Part shown: one piece after another, positions 26,280-37,894 of the stretch | Layout of the letters: every line of letters begins with the position of its first letter | Position numbering within the stretch: position 1 is the first letter of the stretch | NCBI GenBank assembly: GCA_017544835.1 | Contig: JAFYDI010000047.1 | Span: forward strand, 1-40,805 | Reading direction: 5' to 3' | Length of the DNA: 40,805 bases | From: Lachnospiraceae bacterium | Lineage (GTDB): Bacteria; Bacillota; Clostridia; Lachnospirales; Lachnospiraceae | The notes under the pieces: model-generated | What the model was told of the DNA's origin: nothing | Database searches by the model: none | Seen by the model: only the letters and a program-made list of their open reading frames with translations | Position numbers and translations under genes: made by a program

Positions 26280-27290
26280 TTGAATACCAACGCATTCGGA
26301 ATAGACCTTGGAACAAGCAACATACGTATATACAACAGAGCCGACGATGAAATCATGATGGAGAAGAACATGATTGCCATCGAGAATAAGAAGCATGTTT
26401 TTGCTTACGGCGATTCAGCTTTTGAAATGTATGAGAAGGCGCCCGGCAATATCAATATTTCTTATCCGCTTGCCAACGGTGTTATTGCAGATATCAATAA
26501 CATGGAGGTTATCATAAGATTCTTTATTACCGCTCTTATGAATAACAGCGTTAAGCCTGCTGATTACTATATTGCGGTTCCCACAGACGTAACTGAAGTT
26601 GAGAAGAGAGCATTCTACGACCTTATTAAAGAGAGTAACGTCAAGGCCAAGAAGATTATGGTAGTTGAAAAGGCTATCGCAGACGGTCTCGGTATGGATA
26701 TTGATATCAAGAACTCTCAGGGTGTTTTGGTTGTGGATATCGGTTTTGATACTACAGAGATTTCTATTCTTTCTCTCGGCGGTATCGTGCTCAGCCGTCT
26801 TATAAAGATTGGCGGTCTCAAATTTGATGAGGCTATCAAGAATGCGGTTAGAAAAGAATTTTCTTTGTTCATCGGAGGCAAGACTGCAGAGAACGTTAAG
26901 ATTAACCTTGCCGAACTTGAAGCAGCCGGCAAGAACGCAGTTGTATACGGTCGTGACATCGTAACCGGTCTTCCCGTTGAAAGAGAGATTTCAACCGATA
27001 TTGTTAACAGAGCGCTGGAAGAGCATTTTTACTCTATTATCGATAATATTAAAGTTATATTGGAACGTACTCCTCCGGAACTTTCCGCAGATATTTATCG
27101 TCACGGAATCTACTTAACCGGCGGCGGCTCGATGGTCAATAAGCTTGCCGAGAAGATTGCCAACGGTACCGGACTTAAAGTTAACATTGCAGAGAATCCT
27201 CAGAAGAGCGTTGCTTTGGGTCTTGCCAAGATTATCAAGGACGATAATTTCAAAACAGTTGCATACTCGATAGAAGGAATGGGTAAATGA
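26280..27290 (+). CDS. mreB: rod-shape-determining protein MreB
   Basis: Actin-like ATPase that forms membrane-bound filaments guiding lateral wall synthesis by the RodA/PBP2 machine. The 336-residue protein has the phosphate-1 loop GIDLGTSNIRIY (7-18), the connect/phosphate-2 region VVDIGFDTTEISILSLGG, and the adenosine motif YLTGGGSMV. It starts at TTG 26280, supported by TGGAGGA at 26264-26270. The stop overlaps the mreC start by 4 bp (ATGA). It begins the elongasome operon mreB-mreC-mreD-pbp2-minC-rodA. Confidence 0.96.
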   Translation: MNTNAFGIDLGTSNIRIYNRADDEIMMEKNMIAIENKKHVFAYGDSAFEMYEKAPGNINISYPLANGVIADINNMEVIIRFFITALMNNSVKPADYYIAVPTDVTEVEKRAFYDLIKESNVKAKKIMVVEKAIADGLGMDIDIKNSQGVLVVDIGFDTTEISILSLGGIVLSRLIKIGGLKFDEAIKNAVRKEFSLFIGGKTAENVKINLAELEAAGKNAVVYGRDIVTGLPVEREISTDIVNRALEEHFYSIIDNIKVILERTPPELSADIYRHGIYLTGGGSMVNKLAEKIANGTGLKVNIAENPQKSVALGLAKIIKDDNFKTVAYSIEGMGK

Positions 27291-28186
27291 GTCCTGTTAT
27301 CAAGAAAAAAGGAGAAAAATTTACATTACCAAGTAAATATCTCCTTTTTATTTTAACAATTATATGTTCAATCATGCTTGTCGTAACCTACGTAACCGAT
27401 ATTTTCGACAAGCCTCTTGGTTATGCGGTCAATTATATTATTGTCCCTTACCAGAAAGGCATTTCCGCCATCGGTTCAAGACTTTCCGCCAAGAAAGACG
27501 AGCTTGTAATGATAGCCGATCTTATTGAGGAAAATGAAGCCTTAAAGGCCAAGGTTAACGAACTTGAAGATGAGAACACAAGGCTTATGCAGGATAAGTA
27601 TGAGCTTAACAATTTAAGAACGCTTTTTGAACTTGATGCGGCATATGAAGGATACAGAAAGACCGGGGCCAGAGTTATTTATCATGACGCCAGCAACTGG
27701 TTTTCAAACTTTATCATCAATAAAGGCTCCAATGACGGAATAGAGCTTAATATGAATGTTGTGGCAGGTAACGGTTTGGTAGGTTATGTTTCTATGGTAG
27801 GACCCGACTGGGCAAGAGTTACCAGCATTATTTCAGACAATACCAATGTATCGGGAACTGTTCTTTATTCATCCGAGAACCTTATTGTGTCGGGCTCCCT
27901 TGAACTTATTAATTCAGGCTACATCTCATATTCACAGCTTCTAGATTCCAAGGAAACCGTCGGCGAAGGCGATAAAGTCGTTACCAGTAACATAAGTGAC
28001 AAGTATCTTCCCGGTATTCTTATAGGCTATATTCAGACTATCGAGAACGATGCCAATAACCTTACCAAATCAGGGCTTTTAATCCCTGCGGTAAATTTTG
28101 AAAATATCGAAGAGGTCCTCGTAATACTCGACCAGAAGAAGAATATTACCGACAAGGACATTGAAGACGCACAGAAACTTGAATAA
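27287..28186 (+). CDS. mreC: rod-shape-determining protein MreC
   Basis: Bitopic scaffold protein of the elongasome. The 299-residue protein has a short basic cytoplasmic tail and one transmembrane helix (about 20-40). An outer coiled coil covers about 78-110 (ENEALKAKVNELEDENTRL), followed by the beta-rich MreC domain with VIYHDASNWFSNFIINKGS and GLVGYVSMVGPDWARVTSI. Normal length and topology. It overlaps mreB by 4 bp and is followed 3 bp later by mreD. Confidence 0.95.
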   Translation: MSPVIKKKGEKFTLPSKYLLFILTIICSIMLVVTYVTDIFDKPLGYAVNYIIVPYQKGISAIGSRLSAKKDELVMIADLIEENEALKAKVNELEDENTRLMQDKYELNNLRTLFELDAAYEGYRKTGARVIYHDASNWFSNFIINKGSNDGIELNMNVVAGNGLVGYVSMVGPDWARVTSIISDNTNVSGTVLYSSENLIVSGSLELINSGYISYSQLLDSKETVGEGDKVVTSNISDKYLPGILIGYIQTIENDANNLTKSGLLIPAVNFENIEEVLVILDQKKNITDKDIEDAQKLE

Positions 28187-28189
28187 CGC

Positions 28190-28708
28190 ATGAAGAGAAC
28201 CATCATAGGCATAGTACTTATAATTACATCTTTTGTCTTACAGGGAACACTCTTTAAAGCTCTGGATTTTGGCAACGTATCACCGAATCTTTTGCTTATA
28301 ACCGTTGTATCCATGGGACTTATGAAAGGGCAGAGAACAGGCCTCATCGCAGGCTTTTTTTCGGGCCTTCTTTGTGATGTGTTCTTAAGCCCCTATATAG
28401 GCTTTTATGCGATTGTTTACATGTATTTGGGATACATGGCCGGAAGCTTTAACAAGGTTTTCTTTCCCGAAGATGTTAAGCTCCCGATGGCTTTGATTGC
28501 CGGAAGCGATTTGATATACGGATTTGCCTGCTATGTATTTATGTTTTTATTAAGAGGAAAGCTTCACATCGGATATTACATGCTACACGTATGTATACCC
28601 GAATGTATCTATACAATGGTTATAACCGTTATCCTGTATCCGGCGTTACTGTGGCTGCACAAACGCCTAGAAAAGGGCGAAAGAAAGCAGGAAAAGAAGT
28701 TTGTTTAA
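28190..28708 (+). CDS. mreD: rod-shape-determining protein MreD
   Basis: Multi-pass membrane partner of MreC. The 172-residue protein has five to six hydrophobic helices, starting with RTIIGIVLIITSFVLQGTLF. It has the conserved-position phrase NLLLITVVSMGLMKGQRTGLIAGFFSGLLCD. Its stop lies inside the pbp2 start region (8-bp overlap). MreD is poorly conserved in sequence, so position in the operon adds weight to the call. Confidence 0.92.
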   Translation: MKRTIIGIVLIITSFVLQGTLFKALDFGNVSPNLLLITVVSMGLMKGQRTGLIAGFFSGLLCDVFLSPYIGFYAIVYMYLGYMAGSFNKVFFPEDVKLPMALIAGSDLIYGFACYVFMFLLRGKLHIGYYMLHVCIPECIYTMVITVILYPALLWLHKRLEKGERKQEKKFV

Positions 28709-31526
28709 TAAGATTAAAGAATATTTTTTAAGCTTAATAACGACACGTGTCATATATCTTATAGTGATTTTTTGCGTCCTTTTTTCTATCCTTGTGGGAC
28801 GTCTTTTCGATCTTCAGATTGTTCATGGTGACGACTACAAAGACAACTTTGAACTTAAGAGCAAAAAGGAACGTACCATAAATTCTACAAGAGGCAAGAT
28901 TTATGACTGTAACGGTGTTCTTTTGGCATACAACGAACTTGCATACTCCGTTACAATAGAGGACGTACTTGATTCAGGCAAGACCAAGAACGAAAAGCTT
29001 AATAAGATAATTTACAAGACAATAAACATTATCGAAGACAACGGCGATAAGCTTGTTACCGATTTTGCCATTAAGCTTGATGAGAGAAATCGATATGTGT
29101 TTACGCTTTCGGGCTCAAGACTCGATAGATTTAAGGCTGATATTTACGGGCGCAAATATGTTTATGAAATGGACTACTCCGAGTCTTCGTCAACTCCCGA
29201 TGAAATGATGGAATATCTGGCCGGAGAAGACCGTTTTGACATTCAGATTGAGAACCTGCCCAAGGATAAATTGCTTCAGATTGTGGCTATAAGATATGCC
29301 ATGAGCTTAAACGCATATCAGAAATACATTACCACCACAATTGCCGACGATGTTTCACTTGAAACGGTTGCCGTAATCTATGAGAATTCCGATATTTTGC
29401 CGGGTGTCAATATAGCGGAGAACACCAAGCGTGTATACCCAAACGGCATCTATACATCCCAGATAGTGGGTTATACAGGTAAAATTAACGCCGAAGAGCT
29501 TGCAGAGCTTCAGGACGATGAACAATATTCGTTAAACGATATAATCGGTAAGACAGGTATCGAGAAGAGTATGGACTCTGTTTTAAGAGGCTTAAAGGGC
29601 TCGGAGACCATCTATGTCAACACCACAGGTAAAGTAATTTCTATAGATGACCATGTGGATCCGACCGCGGGCAATGACATATATTTATCCATCGATTCAA
29701 AATGGCAGGAAGCCATGTATGATTTGCTTGAGCAGACCCTTGCCGGCATCCTTCTTAAGAAGATATTTAACGCCAAGGAATACAAGCCCAACGATAACAG
29801 CACTGCTCAGGACATCATGATACCGATTTATGACGTATATTATGCGCTTATCAACAACTCGGTTCTTGATATCACACATTTTTCTGACCCTGATGCATCA
29901 CCCGCTGAGCATGAAGTATACGAAGCCTTTCTGAAAAAGAAAGACGATGTAATAACCAAACTCACCGAAGAACTTAATGTAAAGCATACTCCTTACAATA
30001 AGCTTTCCACAGAGTATAAGGTTTACGAAAACAGAGTGGAAGATATTCTGCTTAGTAAAGGTATTCTTGTTAATTCCAAAATTGACAAAGAAGACGCCAC
30101 CTACCTTGCCTGGTACAAAGACGAGACAATCAGCCTTTATGATTACCTTAACTATGCAATTTCCCAAAGCTGGATAGATATTGATGCATTGGATCTTGAA
30201 ACCGATTATTCCGAATCGGGCGAGATATTCGATGCAATGGTACGAATCGTTACGGATGTATTGTCTACCGACATCTTGTTTGAAAAACAGATGTTTAAAT
30301 ATATTGTCAAGAACGACAACGTCAAGCCTCGCGTAATCTGCCAATGTCTGCTAGATCAGAACGTTGTGGTACTTTCCGATGAAGAACGTGCATCGTGGGA
30401 TGCGGGTAAGATTTCGGCATATGATTTTATGCTTCGCAGAATTGAGAACCTTGAAATTACACCGGCTCAGCTTGCTCTTGAACCGTATGCGGCTTCGATG
30501 GTTATAACGGATGTCAATACAGGTAAAGTAAAGGCTTTGGTATCGTACCCCAGTTATGACAATAACTATATTGCCAACGGTGCCGACTCTGCTTATCTGG
30601 CCAAGATTACCAATGACTTATCCATGCCGTTATTTAACTACGCAACCCAGCAAAGAACAGCGCCCGGTTCAACATATAAGATGGTATCGTCTACGGCAGG
30701 ACTTATGGAAGGAGTTATCAGTTTAAATACGCTTATTACCTGTACAGGTTCTTTTACTGTTGCTACAGATACGCACAAATGCTGGGTATGGCCGGGCTCT
30801 CACGGAGCACTGAATGTTACGGGCGCCATAAACAAATCCTGTAACTCTTTCTTTTACAACGTAGGTTACAGATTAAGCCTTGATGAAAACGGTATCTATA
30901 ATTCCGACCTTGGTGTAGAGAAACTTAACAAATATGCCGAAATGTACGGTTTATGTGATAAATCCGGCGTGGAGATAGAAGAATATTCGCCCAATCCGAC
31001 CACCAAGTTTTCGGTTCCGTCAGCTATCGGTCAGGGTACCAACTCATTTACAACTGTGGGACTTGCAAGATATGTGACTGCCATAGCTAACAGAGGAACA
31101 GTTTATAATCTTACGCTTCTTGACAAGATTACGGACAGCGATGCCAATGTATTGGTTGAATGCAAGGCAGAAGTAAAGAATGAAATAGAGATGAAAGACT
31201 CTTACTGGGACGCTATTCAGGAAGGTATGAGAAGAGTGGTGGCAGACACCGCATACTTTAAGGAGCTTCCTTTTGAAGCTGCGGGTAAGACAGGTACGGC
31301 TCAGCAGTCGACTTCTCATCCTGACCATGCATTATTTGTTTCTTTTGCACCATACAAGGATCCGCAGTATTCGATTGCAATAAGAATTGCCAATGGTTAT
31401 ACATCAAGCTATCCTTCACATGTTGCCAAAGATGCTTACAAATACATCTTCAATGTGGGAGATAAGAGTGATACTATTACAGGTACGGCCACAGATATTA
31501 CGGTTTCAGGTACCCATGGGGATTAG
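28701..31526 (+). CDS. mrdA: penicillin-binding protein 2 (elongasome transpeptidase) with a large internal insertion
   Basis: Class B PBP that cross-links peptidoglycan with RodA during elongation. It has an N-terminal helix (about 14-34) and a dimerisation/pedestal domain with IVGYTGKINAEEL and IIGKTGIEKSMDS. The catalytic motifs are S657-x-x-K660 (GSTYKM), S713-C-N715 and K863-T-G865. At 941 residues it is about 250 longer than typical PBP2 (about 650-700). The excess lies between the first strand of the transpeptidase domain (YLSIDSKWQEAMYDLLEQ, ending about 346) and ASMVITDVNTGKVKALVSYP (about 588 on). It is an acidic helical segment of about 235 residues. TTG 28701 overlaps mreD by 8 bp. 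Confidence 0.94.
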   Translation: MFNKIKEYFLSLITTRVIYLIVIFCVLFSILVGRLFDLQIVHGDDYKDNFELKSKKERTINSTRGKIYDCNGVLLAYNELAYSVTIEDVLDSGKTKNEKLNKIIYKTINIIEDNGDKLVTDFAIKLDERNRYVFTLSGSRLDRFKADIYGRKYVYEMDYSESSSTPDEMMEYLAGEDRFDIQIENLPKDKLLQIVAIRYAMSLNAYQKYITTTIADDVSLETVAVIYENSDILPGVNIAENTKRVYPNGIYTSQIVGYTGKINAEELAELQDDEQYSLNDIIGKTGIEKSMDSVLRGLKGSETIYVNTTGKVISIDDHVDPTAGNDIYLSIDSKWQEAMYDLLEQTLAGILLKKIFNAKEYKPNDNSTAQDIMIPIYDVYYALINNSVLDITHFSDPDASPAEHEVYEAFLKKKDDVITKLTEELNVKHTPYNKLSTEYKVYENRVEDILLSKGILVNSKIDKEDATYLAWYKDETISLYDYLNYAISQSWIDIDALDLETDYSESGEIFDAMVRIVTDVLSTDILFEKQMFKYIVKNDNVKPRVICQCLLDQNVVVLSDEERASWDAGKISAYDFMLRRIENLEITPAQLALEPYAASMVITDVNTGKVKALVSYPSYDNNYIANGADSAYLAKITNDLSMPLFNYATQQRTAPGSTYKMVSSTAGLMEGVISLNTLITCTGSFTVATDTHKCWVWPGSHGALNVTGAINKSCNSFFYNVGYRLSLDENGIYNSDLGVEKLNKYAEMYGLCDKSGVEIEEYSPNPTTKFSVPSAIGQGTNSFTTVGLARYVTAIANRGTVYNLTLLDKITDSDANVLVECKAEVKNEIEMKDSYWDAIQEGMRRVVADTAYFKELPFEAAGKTGTAQQSTSHPDHALFVSFAPYKDPQYSIAIRIANGYTSSYPSHVAKDAYKYIFNVGDKSDTITGTATDITVSGTHGD

Positions 31527-31534
31527 GAGTATTT

Positions 31535-32212
31535 ATGAATTCAAAGGTTTATATTAAAAGTTACAAAAACGGACTTACGGTGAATCTTGATTCGGAGTGT
31601 AATTTTACGGATATTCTTGATGAGATTATAAGGAAATTCCGCGAATCGAGAGACTTTTTCAAGGGAGGTCAAATAGCGGTTTCTTATGAAGGCCGAAAGC
31701 TTGATCCGGGTGAAGAAAGAGCCCTTACCGCAGCAATTGAAGAAGCTGCGGATGTGACGGTTTTATACATTATCGGCAAGGATGAAGAGTCTGACGAGAA
31801 CTTTAAGAAGGCAGTGGACAGGCCTATACCGCACCGTGAGGATGATGCTTTATATGCAAGATTCTATTACGGAAATATTAGAAAAGATACCAAGATAGAA
31901 TCCGATTGCAGCGTTGTAATAGTCGGTGATGTGGAACCGGGTGCCAAGGTTTATGCGAAAGGCAACATTATTGTTCTCGGCGGATTGTATGGTACTGCCG
32001 TAAGCGAAGCTGCCACAGATATTTACAAATATTTCGTTGCAGCCATGAACTTAAGCGCAGAGAAGGTAATGATTGGCGGTCATCGTTATTATTCCAAGGA
32101 GAAAGCAAGATGGGTGGTTCGCCCCAAGATGACTCCCAAGTTATTGTATGTATCAGGTGACGAGATTGTTGCCGAAAATATCACTTTGGAAGCTTTGCAG
32201 AATTTGAAATAG
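31535..32212 (+). CDS. minC: MinC-like septum-site protein without adjacent minD/minE
   Basis: MinC normally blocks FtsZ assembly away from midcell and is recruited to the membrane by MinD. The 225-residue protein has the MinC N-terminal domain (about 1-95, with RESRDFFKGGQI and EGRKLDPGEERAL). The C-terminal beta-helix domain has VVIVGDVEPGAKVYAKGNII. Both regions tied to MinD contact are altered. The RSGQ motif position reads RKDT (116-119), and the RGxAHAGA-type stretch reads YGTAVSEA (152-159). The gene is directly followed by rodA 10 bp later, so minD and minE are missing from their usual place. TAGGAGT precedes ATG 31535 and overlaps the pbp2 stop. It may act without MinD or have a new partner in the elongasome. 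Confidence 0.88.
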   Translation: MNSKVYIKSYKNGLTVNLDSECNFTDILDEIIRKFRESRDFFKGGQIAVSYEGRKLDPGEERALTAAIEEAADVTVLYIIGKDEESDENFKKAVDRPIPHREDDALYARFYYGNIRKDTKIESDCSVVIVGDVEPGAKVYAKGNIIVLGGLYGTAVSEAATDIYKYFVAAMNLSAEKVMIGGHRYYSKEKARWVVRPKMTPKLLYVSGDEIVAENITLEALQNLK

Positions 32213-32221
32213 GAATTGTAA

Positions 32222-33367
32222 ATGTTTAAAAGATTAAAAATAACGGATTACGACTTTAAACTGATCGCTTTTATAATTGCGATAAACGTAATCGGAAATC
32301 TTGCCGTAGGAAGTGCCAATCCCTCTTATGTAAAGAAGGAACTTCTGGGCTCGATTCTCGGTTTCTTTTTGATGGTTGTGGTTTCGCTTTTTGATTACAA
32401 TGTAATATTAAAGTTTCACTGGCTGTGGTATTTTATATGCTGCGGACTGCTTCTTGCGGTACTTGTTGCGGGCTCGTCTTCTCATAACGCAACACGTTGG
32501 TTTGAAATCGCCGGGATACGATTCCAGCCATCTGAAACGGCGAAAATAATGTTGATTATTTTTTTCGCACAGTTTATTATGAAATATAGGGAAAAGATTA
32601 ATACATTGATGTTCTTAGTCAGCTATTTTGTGCTGTGCGGCATACCTATGGGACTTATTTACAAGCAGCCCGATATGTCCACCACAATCGTTATAGCTAC
32701 GCTTGTAATATCGATTTTGTTTGTGTCGGGAATCAGCTGGAAGCTTATTATAGGAGCGATAACGGTTGCCATTCCTTCCTCGATTGTATTCTTAAGCATG
32801 ATACTTAAGGAGGATCAGACGCTTCTTAAAGATTACCAGCGTAACAGAATTCTTTCTTTCTTTTACCCTGAGAAATATGTCGACAACGCTTATCAGCAGG
32901 CCAATTCCGTTATAGCCATAGGTTCAGGCGGACTTATGGGTAAGGGACTTAACAATAATGAGATTACCTCTCTTAAGAACGGTCGTTATATTATCGAGCC
33001 CGAGACCGACTTTATATTCTCGGTAATCGGTGAAGAGCTTGGGTTTATGGGAACACTTGCAGTAATTATTTTGCTTTTCCTTATTGTGATTGAATGCTTT
33101 CTCATTGCAAGACGCGTACATGATATCGCAGGCAGAGCGATTTGCGTCGGAATGGGTACTCTTATCGGAATACAGACATTTTTTAATATAGGTGTTACAA
33201 CATTTATCCTGCCCAATACAGGTCTTACATTACCGTTTGTAAGTTATGGACTCACTGCACTTGTGAGTATGTATATAGGTATGGGGTTTGTCTTAAGCGT
33301 AAGGCTTCACAGTAAGCCGCCGAGAGACAAAAGAGAAGTGTCTTTTTTATCTTTTAAAGGGGAATAG
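32222..33367 (+). CDS. rodA: rod-shape-determining protein RodA (SEDS glycosyltransferase)
   Basis: Polytopic SEDS peptidoglycan polymerase that pairs with PBP2. The 381-residue protein has about ten transmembrane helices. It has the family segments NATRWFEIAGIRFQPSETAK, GMGxx-like QANSVIAIGSGGLMGKGLN, PETDFIFSVIGEELGF and the C-terminal TGLTLPFVSYG. FtsW is an alternative name for the superfamily, but the mreBCD-pbp2 context and mgsA downstream favour RodA. A weak TAGGAATTG site precedes ATG 32222. Confidence 0.94.
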   Translation: MFKRLKITDYDFKLIAFIIAINVIGNLAVGSANPSYVKKELLGSILGFFLMVVVSLFDYNVILKFHWLWYFICCGLLLAVLVAGSSSHNATRWFEIAGIRFQPSETAKIMLIIFFAQFIMKYREKINTLMFLVSYFVLCGIPMGLIYKQPDMSTTIVIATLVISILFVSGISWKLIIGAITVAIPSSIVFLSMILKEDQTLLKDYQRNRILSFFYPEKYVDNAYQQANSVIAIGSGGLMGKGLNNNEITSLKNGRYIIEPETDFIFSVIGEELGFMGTLAVIILLFLIVIECFLIARRVHDIAGRAICVGMGTLIGIQTFFNIGVTTFILPNTGLTLPFVSYGLTALVSMYIGMGFVLSVRLHSKPPRDKREVSFLSFKGE

Positions 33368-36723: not shown

Positions 36724-37416
36724 ATGATTAAAGATAATTTGGAAGTAATCAGACAGGGAATCGTCGATTCCTGCAATAAATCAGGCAGAGATACTAAGGA
36801 CGTTACGCTTATTGCTGTCAGCAAGTTTAAGCCTATAGAAGATTTAAGAGAAGCTTATGAAGCGGGCGTCAGAGACTTTGGCGAGAACAGAGTTCAGGAA
36901 CTTGTAGAGAAGTATGATTTAATGCCTCGTGATACAAGATTTCACATGATAGGTCATTTGCAAAAGAACAAGGTTAAATATCTTATAGGCAAGACCGTTC
37001 TTATTCACAGTGTAGACAATCTTGAACTTGCCAAGACAATTCAGAAAGAATCTGCCAAGGCCGGAGTCGTTACAGATGTGCTTATTGAAGTCAATATAGC
37101 AGGTGAAGAGACCAAGTTTGGCTGCACTAAAGACGATGCAATTTCCTTGGTTAAAGAGATATCTGAGTTTAATAATGTCAGAATAAGAGGCCTCATGACA
37201 ATAGCACCATATGTAGAAAATGATGAGGAAAATCGTCAACATTTTGTTGCTTTGAGGCAATTAGGCATTGACATAGAAAGTCAAAACATCGATAATGTTT
37301 CTATGGAAATCTTTTCCATGGGAATGACTTGCGACTATAAAGTTGCGGTCGAGGAAGGTGCCACGATGGTAAGAGTAGGCACCGCTATATTTGGGGAAAG
37401 GAATACTAATTTATAA
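36724..37416 (+). CDS. yggS: YggS/PLPBP family pyridoxal-phosphate homeostasis protein
   Basis: PLP-binding fold-type III protein without known enzymatic activity that keeps vitamin B6 and amino-acid pools balanced (YlmE in B. subtilis). The 230-residue protein has the PLP lysine K34 (AVSKFKP), DFGENRVQEL, FHMIGHLQKNKVKYL and the phosphate-binding SMGMTCDYKVAVEEGATMVRVGT. Normal length. Its gene lies 14 bp after the HlyD-like gene. sepF starts 13 bp after its stop. Confidence 0.96.
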   Translation: MIKDNLEVIRQGIVDSCNKSGRDTKDVTLIAVSKFKPIEDLREAYEAGVRDFGENRVQELVEKYDLMPRDTRFHMIGHLQKNKVKYLIGKTVLIHSVDNLELAKTIQKESAKAGVVTDVLIEVNIAGEETKFGCTKDDAISLVKEISEFNNVRIRGLMTIAPYVENDEENRQHFVALRQLGIDIESQNIDNVSMEIFSMGMTCDYKVAVEEGATMVRVGTAIFGERNTNL

Positions 37417-37429
37417 GGAGAGTATAGTT

Positions 37430-37894
37430 ATGAGCATGATGGATAAACTTTCTTCCATGTTTAAACCTGGAGATGACATTGATGATGAATATGATTATGA
37501 AGACGAAGACGATTATGAAGAGCCTGCAAAACCTGCAAGGTCTGAAGTCTCAGATAGTAAGATAGCTAAGCCTTTCGAGAAGAAATCGGCTCCTCAACCC
37601 AGAAAGAAGGTTAGTATGACTGATTCTGCAGTTTGTGTATTTAAACCTACAGGATTTGATGAATCCAGAGAAATCGTAGATACATTCCTTGAGGACAAGA
37701 CCGTACTTATGAATTTTGAAGGCGTTGACCTTGCAATTTCTCAGCGTATTCTTGATATTGTGACCGGTGCTTGTATTGCTGTGGGAGGCAATCTTCAGAA
37801 GGTATCCAATTATATCTTTATTGCAACTCCCGCAAGCGTAGATGTTTCCGGAGAGTTTCAGGATTCTTTAACCGGGGCGTTCGATTCTTTATAA
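37430..37894 (+). CDS. sepF: cell division protein SepF
   Basis: Cytosolic FtsZ-binding protein that bundles FtsZ and tethers it to the membrane. The 154-residue protein starts with an amphipathic membrane-targeting helix (MSMMDKLSSMF). It continues with an acidic disordered linker rich in Asp/Glu/Tyr (about 15-40) and ends with the globular SepF domain (about 65-150, DKTVLMNFEGVDLAISQRILDIVTGACIAVGG is its core). I chose ATG 37430 because AAGGAGA at 37415-37421 is properly spaced. A terminator follows directly. The genes usually found next (ylmG, ylmH, divIVA) are absent. Confidence 0.94.
   Translation: MSMMDKLSSMFKPGDDIDDEYDYEDEDDYEEPAKPARSEVSDSKIAKPFEKKSAPQPRKKVSMTDSAVCVFKPTGFDESREIVDTFLEDKTVLMNFEGVDLAISQRILDIVTGACIAVGGNLQKVSNYIFIATPASVDVSGEFQDSLTGAFDSL

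Follow-up and report, generated by a model that had tools for sequence, protein, structure and literature searches.

MinC is a brake on cell division that MinD normally carries to the membrane, and the question raised by the stretch of DNA described here (the window, 40,805 nucleotides of contig JAFYDI010000047.1 from Lachnospiraceae bacterium GCA_017544835.1) is how a minC that stands without minD might still act. The gene (31535..32212, + strand), identified as an open reading frame with Pfam MinC_N and MinC_C matches and a fold match, encodes 225 amino acids. It begins 8 bp after pbp2 (mrdA; 28701..31526, +; NCBIfam pbp2_mrdA, 417.6 bits against a cut-off of 455), which stands upstream of the minCDE slot, and its stop lies 9 bp before the start of rodA (32222..33367, +; NCBIfam rodA_shape, 289.7 bits against 336.7), with mreB, mreC and mreD (26280..28708, +; NCBIfam) upstream in the same operon. 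The gene order thus confirms the orphan minC between pbp2 and rodA that a first-pass annotation had described. About 5 kb downstream of minC is sepF (37391-37894; Pfam SepF, 81 bits); SepF is a membrane anchor that binds the FtsZ tail.

Both MinC domains are present in the product by Pfam: the N-terminal domain (residues 5-76; 31547..31762, +; MinC_N_1), which inhibits FtsZ in known MinCs, and the C-terminal beta-helix domain (residues 111-212; 31865..32170, +; MinC_C), supported by an AlphaFold model and a match to 4v02. The predicted fold, built on an alignment of 35 sequences and with a mean pLDDT of 80, agrees with solved MinC structures, which were the only structures found at E<=0.001 in a fold search with the model. 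The NCBIfam equivalog cut-offs for MinC were not reached (TIGR01222, 58.6 bits versus 95.25; NF001775, 65.8 versus 292). The N-domain pattern IKS..NG is kept throughout the genus, with I7, K8, S9, N12 and G13 invariant in 10 thinned members, and the minC frame is open and free of stops in all 16 genus members with a match. MinC is under strong purifying selection in close relatives, with dN/dS of 0-0.08 in eight close genus pairs, where PBP2 has 0.017-0.040; two wider pairs, with dS of 1.2-1.9, give about 0.29 for MinC and 0.08-0.09 for PBP2. FtsZ with a recognizable C-terminal peptide was found in all eight orphan-MinC genomes looked at, and the MinC of the window may be a functional FtsZ inhibitor operating without MinD.

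The first-pass annotation had proposed a search of the genome for the partner genes, and neither was detected. The genome of the window, which is 96.6% complete, gave no minE match at E<=10 and nothing over the cut-off for minD; its highest-scoring MinD relative is a neighbor of FlhF and was taken to be FlhG. Among 18 genomes of the genus, MinC was found in 16, MinD over the cut-off in none and MinE in none, and minC is followed directly by rodA in 15 of the 16 that carry it. DivIVA over the cut-off was likewise absent from all 18, with one match below the cut-off in G005. The arrangement of the window is repeated in Lachnospiraceae bacterium YSD2013, whose MinC is 95% identical.

Comparison across the family and order revealed that the common arrangement is pbp2-minC-minD-minE-rodA, and that the pbp2-rodA slot may otherwise hold CD, DE, D or C, or be empty. 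MinD scored over the cut-off in 287 of 396 genomes sampled from the family, all of them at least 85% complete. From best E-values, 92 newly seen MinD-lacking genomes were picked by eye, and 80 of them were searched for MinC, the 12 of the same genus being left out. A MinC_C match at E<=1e-4 was found in 28 of the 80 (27 over the cut-off) and was lacking in 52. At 25 of these 27 loci the order is pbp2-minC-rodA; of the two others, L120 has minC with a minD cut by the contig end and L134 has minC with a divergent minD. MinC without MinD is therefore not singular and recurs within one bacterial family. On a 70-genome tree of MreD, PBP2 and RodA the C-only state required five label changes, four of them forced by supported branches, and 11 changes, seven of them forced, on a tree of 149 rows built from shorter pieces (G018 was left out of the trees). 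MinDE is thus missing from the slot in several lineages, with at least seven supported label changes. The reverse state, with minD-minE kept and minC gone, was seen at L078, L080, L081, L083, L193-L195, L198, L202 and L205, that is, at six of 60 high-scoring MinD loci examined plus four in the first set. Genome G020 has, besides a second pbp2-like gene, an additional minCDE set (L110) that lies apart from the mre operon. In another genome, one of the 25 with pbp2-minC-rodA (L128:547-2046, - strand; G151), MinC continues into a C-terminal domain that matches ParA/MinD-type Pfam families weakly and whose Walker A motif looks degenerate by eye, a possible second way of tethering MinC without a MinD ATPase.

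RSGQ is the MinD-binding motif of E. coli MinC, and by alignment its position reads RKDT in the window protein (31880..31891, +), a change that the first-pass annotation took as a sign of freedom from MinD. That interpretation does not hold, as exact RSGQ is also absent from 17 of 37 minCDE relatives, ten of which lack the arginine too. Equivalents of MinD helix-7 residues S148 and D154 are present in all 37, so the motif can evidently erode with MinD present, and its loss was rejected as a marker of MinD loss. (A passage of PMC6771821 gives D154 to MinC and R133 to MinD; two other papers have the reverse, which is followed here.) The second motif, of the RGxAHAGA type, was also described as lost. 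YGTAVSEA of the window (31988..32011, +) aligns opposite RGRALAGA of E. coli with E158 at the glycine position; the glycine is lost in 15 of 16 genus members and kept in 36/36 and 55/55 MinDE-bearing relatives. Relatives with intact minCDE thus share the erosion of RSGQ-type residues, and among those examined none shares the loss of the glycine, which appears to be more telling than RSGQ about MinD. Glycine loss as a general outcome of MinD loss was ruled out, since most other C-only proteins keep it (5/5 in the first set and 23/25 in a later set, where L128, one of two exceptions, is misaligned); the genus of the window appears to be further diverged at this position than other C-only lineages. 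Together, the genus-wide absence of MinD and MinE, the purifying selection and the loss of this glycine favor the earlier suggestion that this MinC may be independent of MinD.

A further difference lies in the segment that joins the last beta-helix strand to the strands of the C-terminus, where the window protein has a basic-aromatic loop, K188-K198 (KEKARWVVRPK; 32096..32128, +), proposed to contact either membrane or FtsZ. Genus loops resemble K[ED]K.[KR]W.[IV][KR]PK, and W193 (32111-32113, +), P197 and K198 are invariant in 10/10 thinned members (G035, with its N-terminus cut, was left out of residue-conservation and loop comparisons). In most minCDE loops examined (23/36 and 49/55), IAR or IGR comes first instead, and a basic stretch of variable sequence follows. 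In the predicted model the loop has no secondary structure, with a mean pLDDT of 55 over residues 191-200, and a segment that is conserved yet without predicted structure suggests a contact surface.

Loops were scored by a rule requiring F or W with a net charge of at least +3 within five residues, L128, a misaligned fusion, being left out of loop counts and rate tests. In the first set 20 of 21 C-only proteins satisfied the rule versus 5 of 36 CDE proteins; in the later set the figures were 16/24 versus 3/55 (Fisher p 2e-8), a comparison that is not blind because the rule was fixed after the loops of both sets were known, and in which the 55 CDE controls came mostly from best-scoring MinDs. 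At a net charge of at least 2 the later set gave 19/24 versus 6/55, and at least 4 gave 9/24 versus 2/55. Four of the eight later C-only proteins that fail the rule have neither F nor W in the loop. Loop net charge alone gave no clear difference between C-only and CDE proteins (p 0.09), and a looser rule admitting F, W, L, I or M was discarded for its poorer separation (19/24 versus 16/55 at net charge of at least 3). Outside the loop, basic-aromatic stretches occur at 0.57-0.58 per protein in C-only MinCs versus 0.25-0.28. A second orphan group has AGFLR[KR] in 11/11 named genomes.

The loop is not exclusive to orphan MinCs, an idea ruled out by loop-bearing minCDE genomes of the same clade: the five of 36 in the first set all belong to the clade of the window's genus, and the loop is present at 10 of 16 minCDE loci chosen for closeness to the window. 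Since minCDE relatives have it, the loop is compatible with MinD and predates the minDE losses. This also accounts for the result of an independent-pairs test, in which seven pairs gave no significant association between loop and minDE loss. A fitted model gave a minDE loss rate of 3.3 on loop-bearing branches versus 0.055 on others (LRT p 1.4e-10), although this model is weakened by few loop gains and by state-dependent sampling.

Genomes in apparent transition provide another view of this history. The C-terminal amphipathic helix of MinD binds membrane for MinCD, and loss of this anchor where MinC has the loop is a prediction of the idea that the anchor moved from MinD to MinC. MinC and MinD without an adjacent MinE were found in eight genomes, seven of them with the MinC loop. 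Measured as residues beyond the conserved GE-VP element, the MinD tails of minCDE loci are 22-33 residues long in 37/37, and this is the site of the amphipathic helix. Tails of only 0-12 residues were found in five of the seven loop-bearing genomes, which fall in three genera (G061 and G396 in one, G126 and G406 in another, and G319); G270 and G305 keep both the MinD helix and the MinC loop. The eighth genome, G057, has no loop, and its MinD retains a basic-aromatic tail; it was left out of the tail counts, being split over two contigs. An attempt to recognize the MinD membrane helix by regular expression was abandoned, the pattern having missed five helix-like CDE tails and passed two truncated ones. 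By locus, the MinDs at L134:1869-2555, L226, L229, L221, L213 and L063 (G061) lack the C-terminal membrane helix and have an intact-looking Walker A; each adjoins a loop-bearing MinC with no minE beside it. MinDs without a membrane-targeting sequence could be decaying.

The explanation we tentatively favor is that this MinC, with MinD gone, still inhibits FtsZ and that its loop binds membrane directly. In this scheme MinC of the clade would already have gained, behind its C-terminal beta-helix, an exposed loop that is basic and contains Trp; the loop would bind membrane as the MinD amphipathic helix does for MinCD; and MinE and MinD, having become dispensable, would have been lost from between minC and rodA. 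MinC would then hold the membrane by its own loop and FtsZ by its domains, a membrane-tethered, ATPase-free inhibitor with no need of MinD. With MinE and DivIVA both lacking, such a MinC would not be expected to oscillate or to follow a DivIVA-based gradient. Somewhat less probable is the wider proposal that in Lachnospiraceae a loop exposed on MinC turned into a membrane-targeting element, after which MinE, the MinD helix and finally MinD itself were lost, several independent times, to leave a one-protein, ATPase-free, non-oscillating division inhibitor. In experiments described in the review PMC6803595, MinC that the membrane-targeting sequence of MinD holds at the membrane impedes division without MinD; the review also describes MinD as adding activity to membrane-tethered MinC, which counts against anchoring by the loop alone.

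The chief rival to membrane anchoring is that the loop binds FtsZ rather than lipid, at the C-terminal peptide or at an acidic patch near helices H9-H10, giving a MinD-independent, possibly cytosolic inhibitor of higher affinity. The basic-aromatic composition of the loop would suit an acidic partner, and FtsZ tails could be recognized in all eight orphan genomes looked at. PMC3618327 places MinC-resistance mutations of B. subtilis FtsZ in a negative patch, and PMC6803595 describes binding of the FtsZ tail by the C-domain of E. coli MinC, largely dependent on MinD. However, this explanation does not predict the loss of the MinD helix in loop-bearing transitional genomes, and several loops, such as the AGFLR[KR] of the 11 named genomes, resemble short membrane helices; we regard it as unlikely.

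Less probable again is that the flagellar MinD relative FlhG replaced MinD as the ATPase partner of MinC. FlhF-FlhG pairs occur in the genome of the window and in three other orphan genera, and an FlhG-like match was found in 22 of 25 later orphan-MinC genomes versus 22 of 51 genomes with neither MinC nor MinD (p 2e-4), where FlhG-like means E<=1e-24 to the MinD model, a proxy threshold, and the statistic ignores phylogeny. Flagellated rods may, however, keep MinC for other reasons; the FlhG of the window's genome has Y at the MinD contact D154 (read by eye, unaligned), and the canonical contact residues of MinC are gone too. The three orphan genomes without an FlhG-like protein (G129, G275 and G241) also have a loop that contains neither F nor W (L129, L131 and L142).

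The first-pass annotation had instead looked to the operon, proposing PBP2, RodA or MreC as the protein that recruits MinC. MinC must be placed somehow, and a shared operon makes co-expression likely; but in relatives the whole of minCDE lies at this position, between pbp2 and rodA, so that minC has inherited its place in the elongasome operon and the place tells nothing of a partner. The present neighbors are what remained after minDE loss, operon position was accordingly rejected as evidence, and nothing noticed in the sequence points to such a partner, so that this recruitment seems improbable, slightly more so than a role for FlhG. Overall, the first reading of the orphan MinC is partly supported. 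Least probable is that MinC is a relict kept by operon structure alone: MinC_C matches are lacking in most of the 80 MinD-lacking genomes searched and MinC evolves faster than PBP2 in the two wider pairs, but the uninterrupted frame, the low dN/dS of the close pairs and the conserved loop all argue otherwise.

Anchoring by the MinC loop, as favored here, can be set beside known systems. The MinCDE systems of relatives in Clostridia and Lachnospiraceae share the operon slot and the MinC fold and are orthologous by position; the window differs in having no minD or minE, in loss of the second-motif glycine, and in the conserved basic-Trp loop that replaces the usual IAR[SC]xD-type loop. MinCD-MinJ-DivIVA of Bacillus subtilis is alike in having no MinE, but here MinD is absent and DivIVA was not detected over the cut-off in the genus. 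Bactofilin was also named among the closest known systems. Engineered MinCs fused to the membrane-targeting sequence of MinD or the transmembrane domain of ZipA, described in PMC6803595, are likewise held at the membrane without MinD, whereas the present case is natural, is proposed only, and involves an internal loop instead of a fusion. According to the same paper, MinC of E. coli acts in the absence of MinD only when overproduced 25- to 50-fold. Among the matches listed from the open-access literature, none describes a natural MinC without MinD or a MinC with its own membrane element or lipid binding. The nearly identical MinC belongs to YSD2013, a record without a metagenome-assembly label, so that a direct test may be feasible. 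A MinC that recurs without MinD and is under selection provides natural test material for what MinD adds besides membrane recruitment, and also for whether cells need oscillation or polar gradients in the first place.
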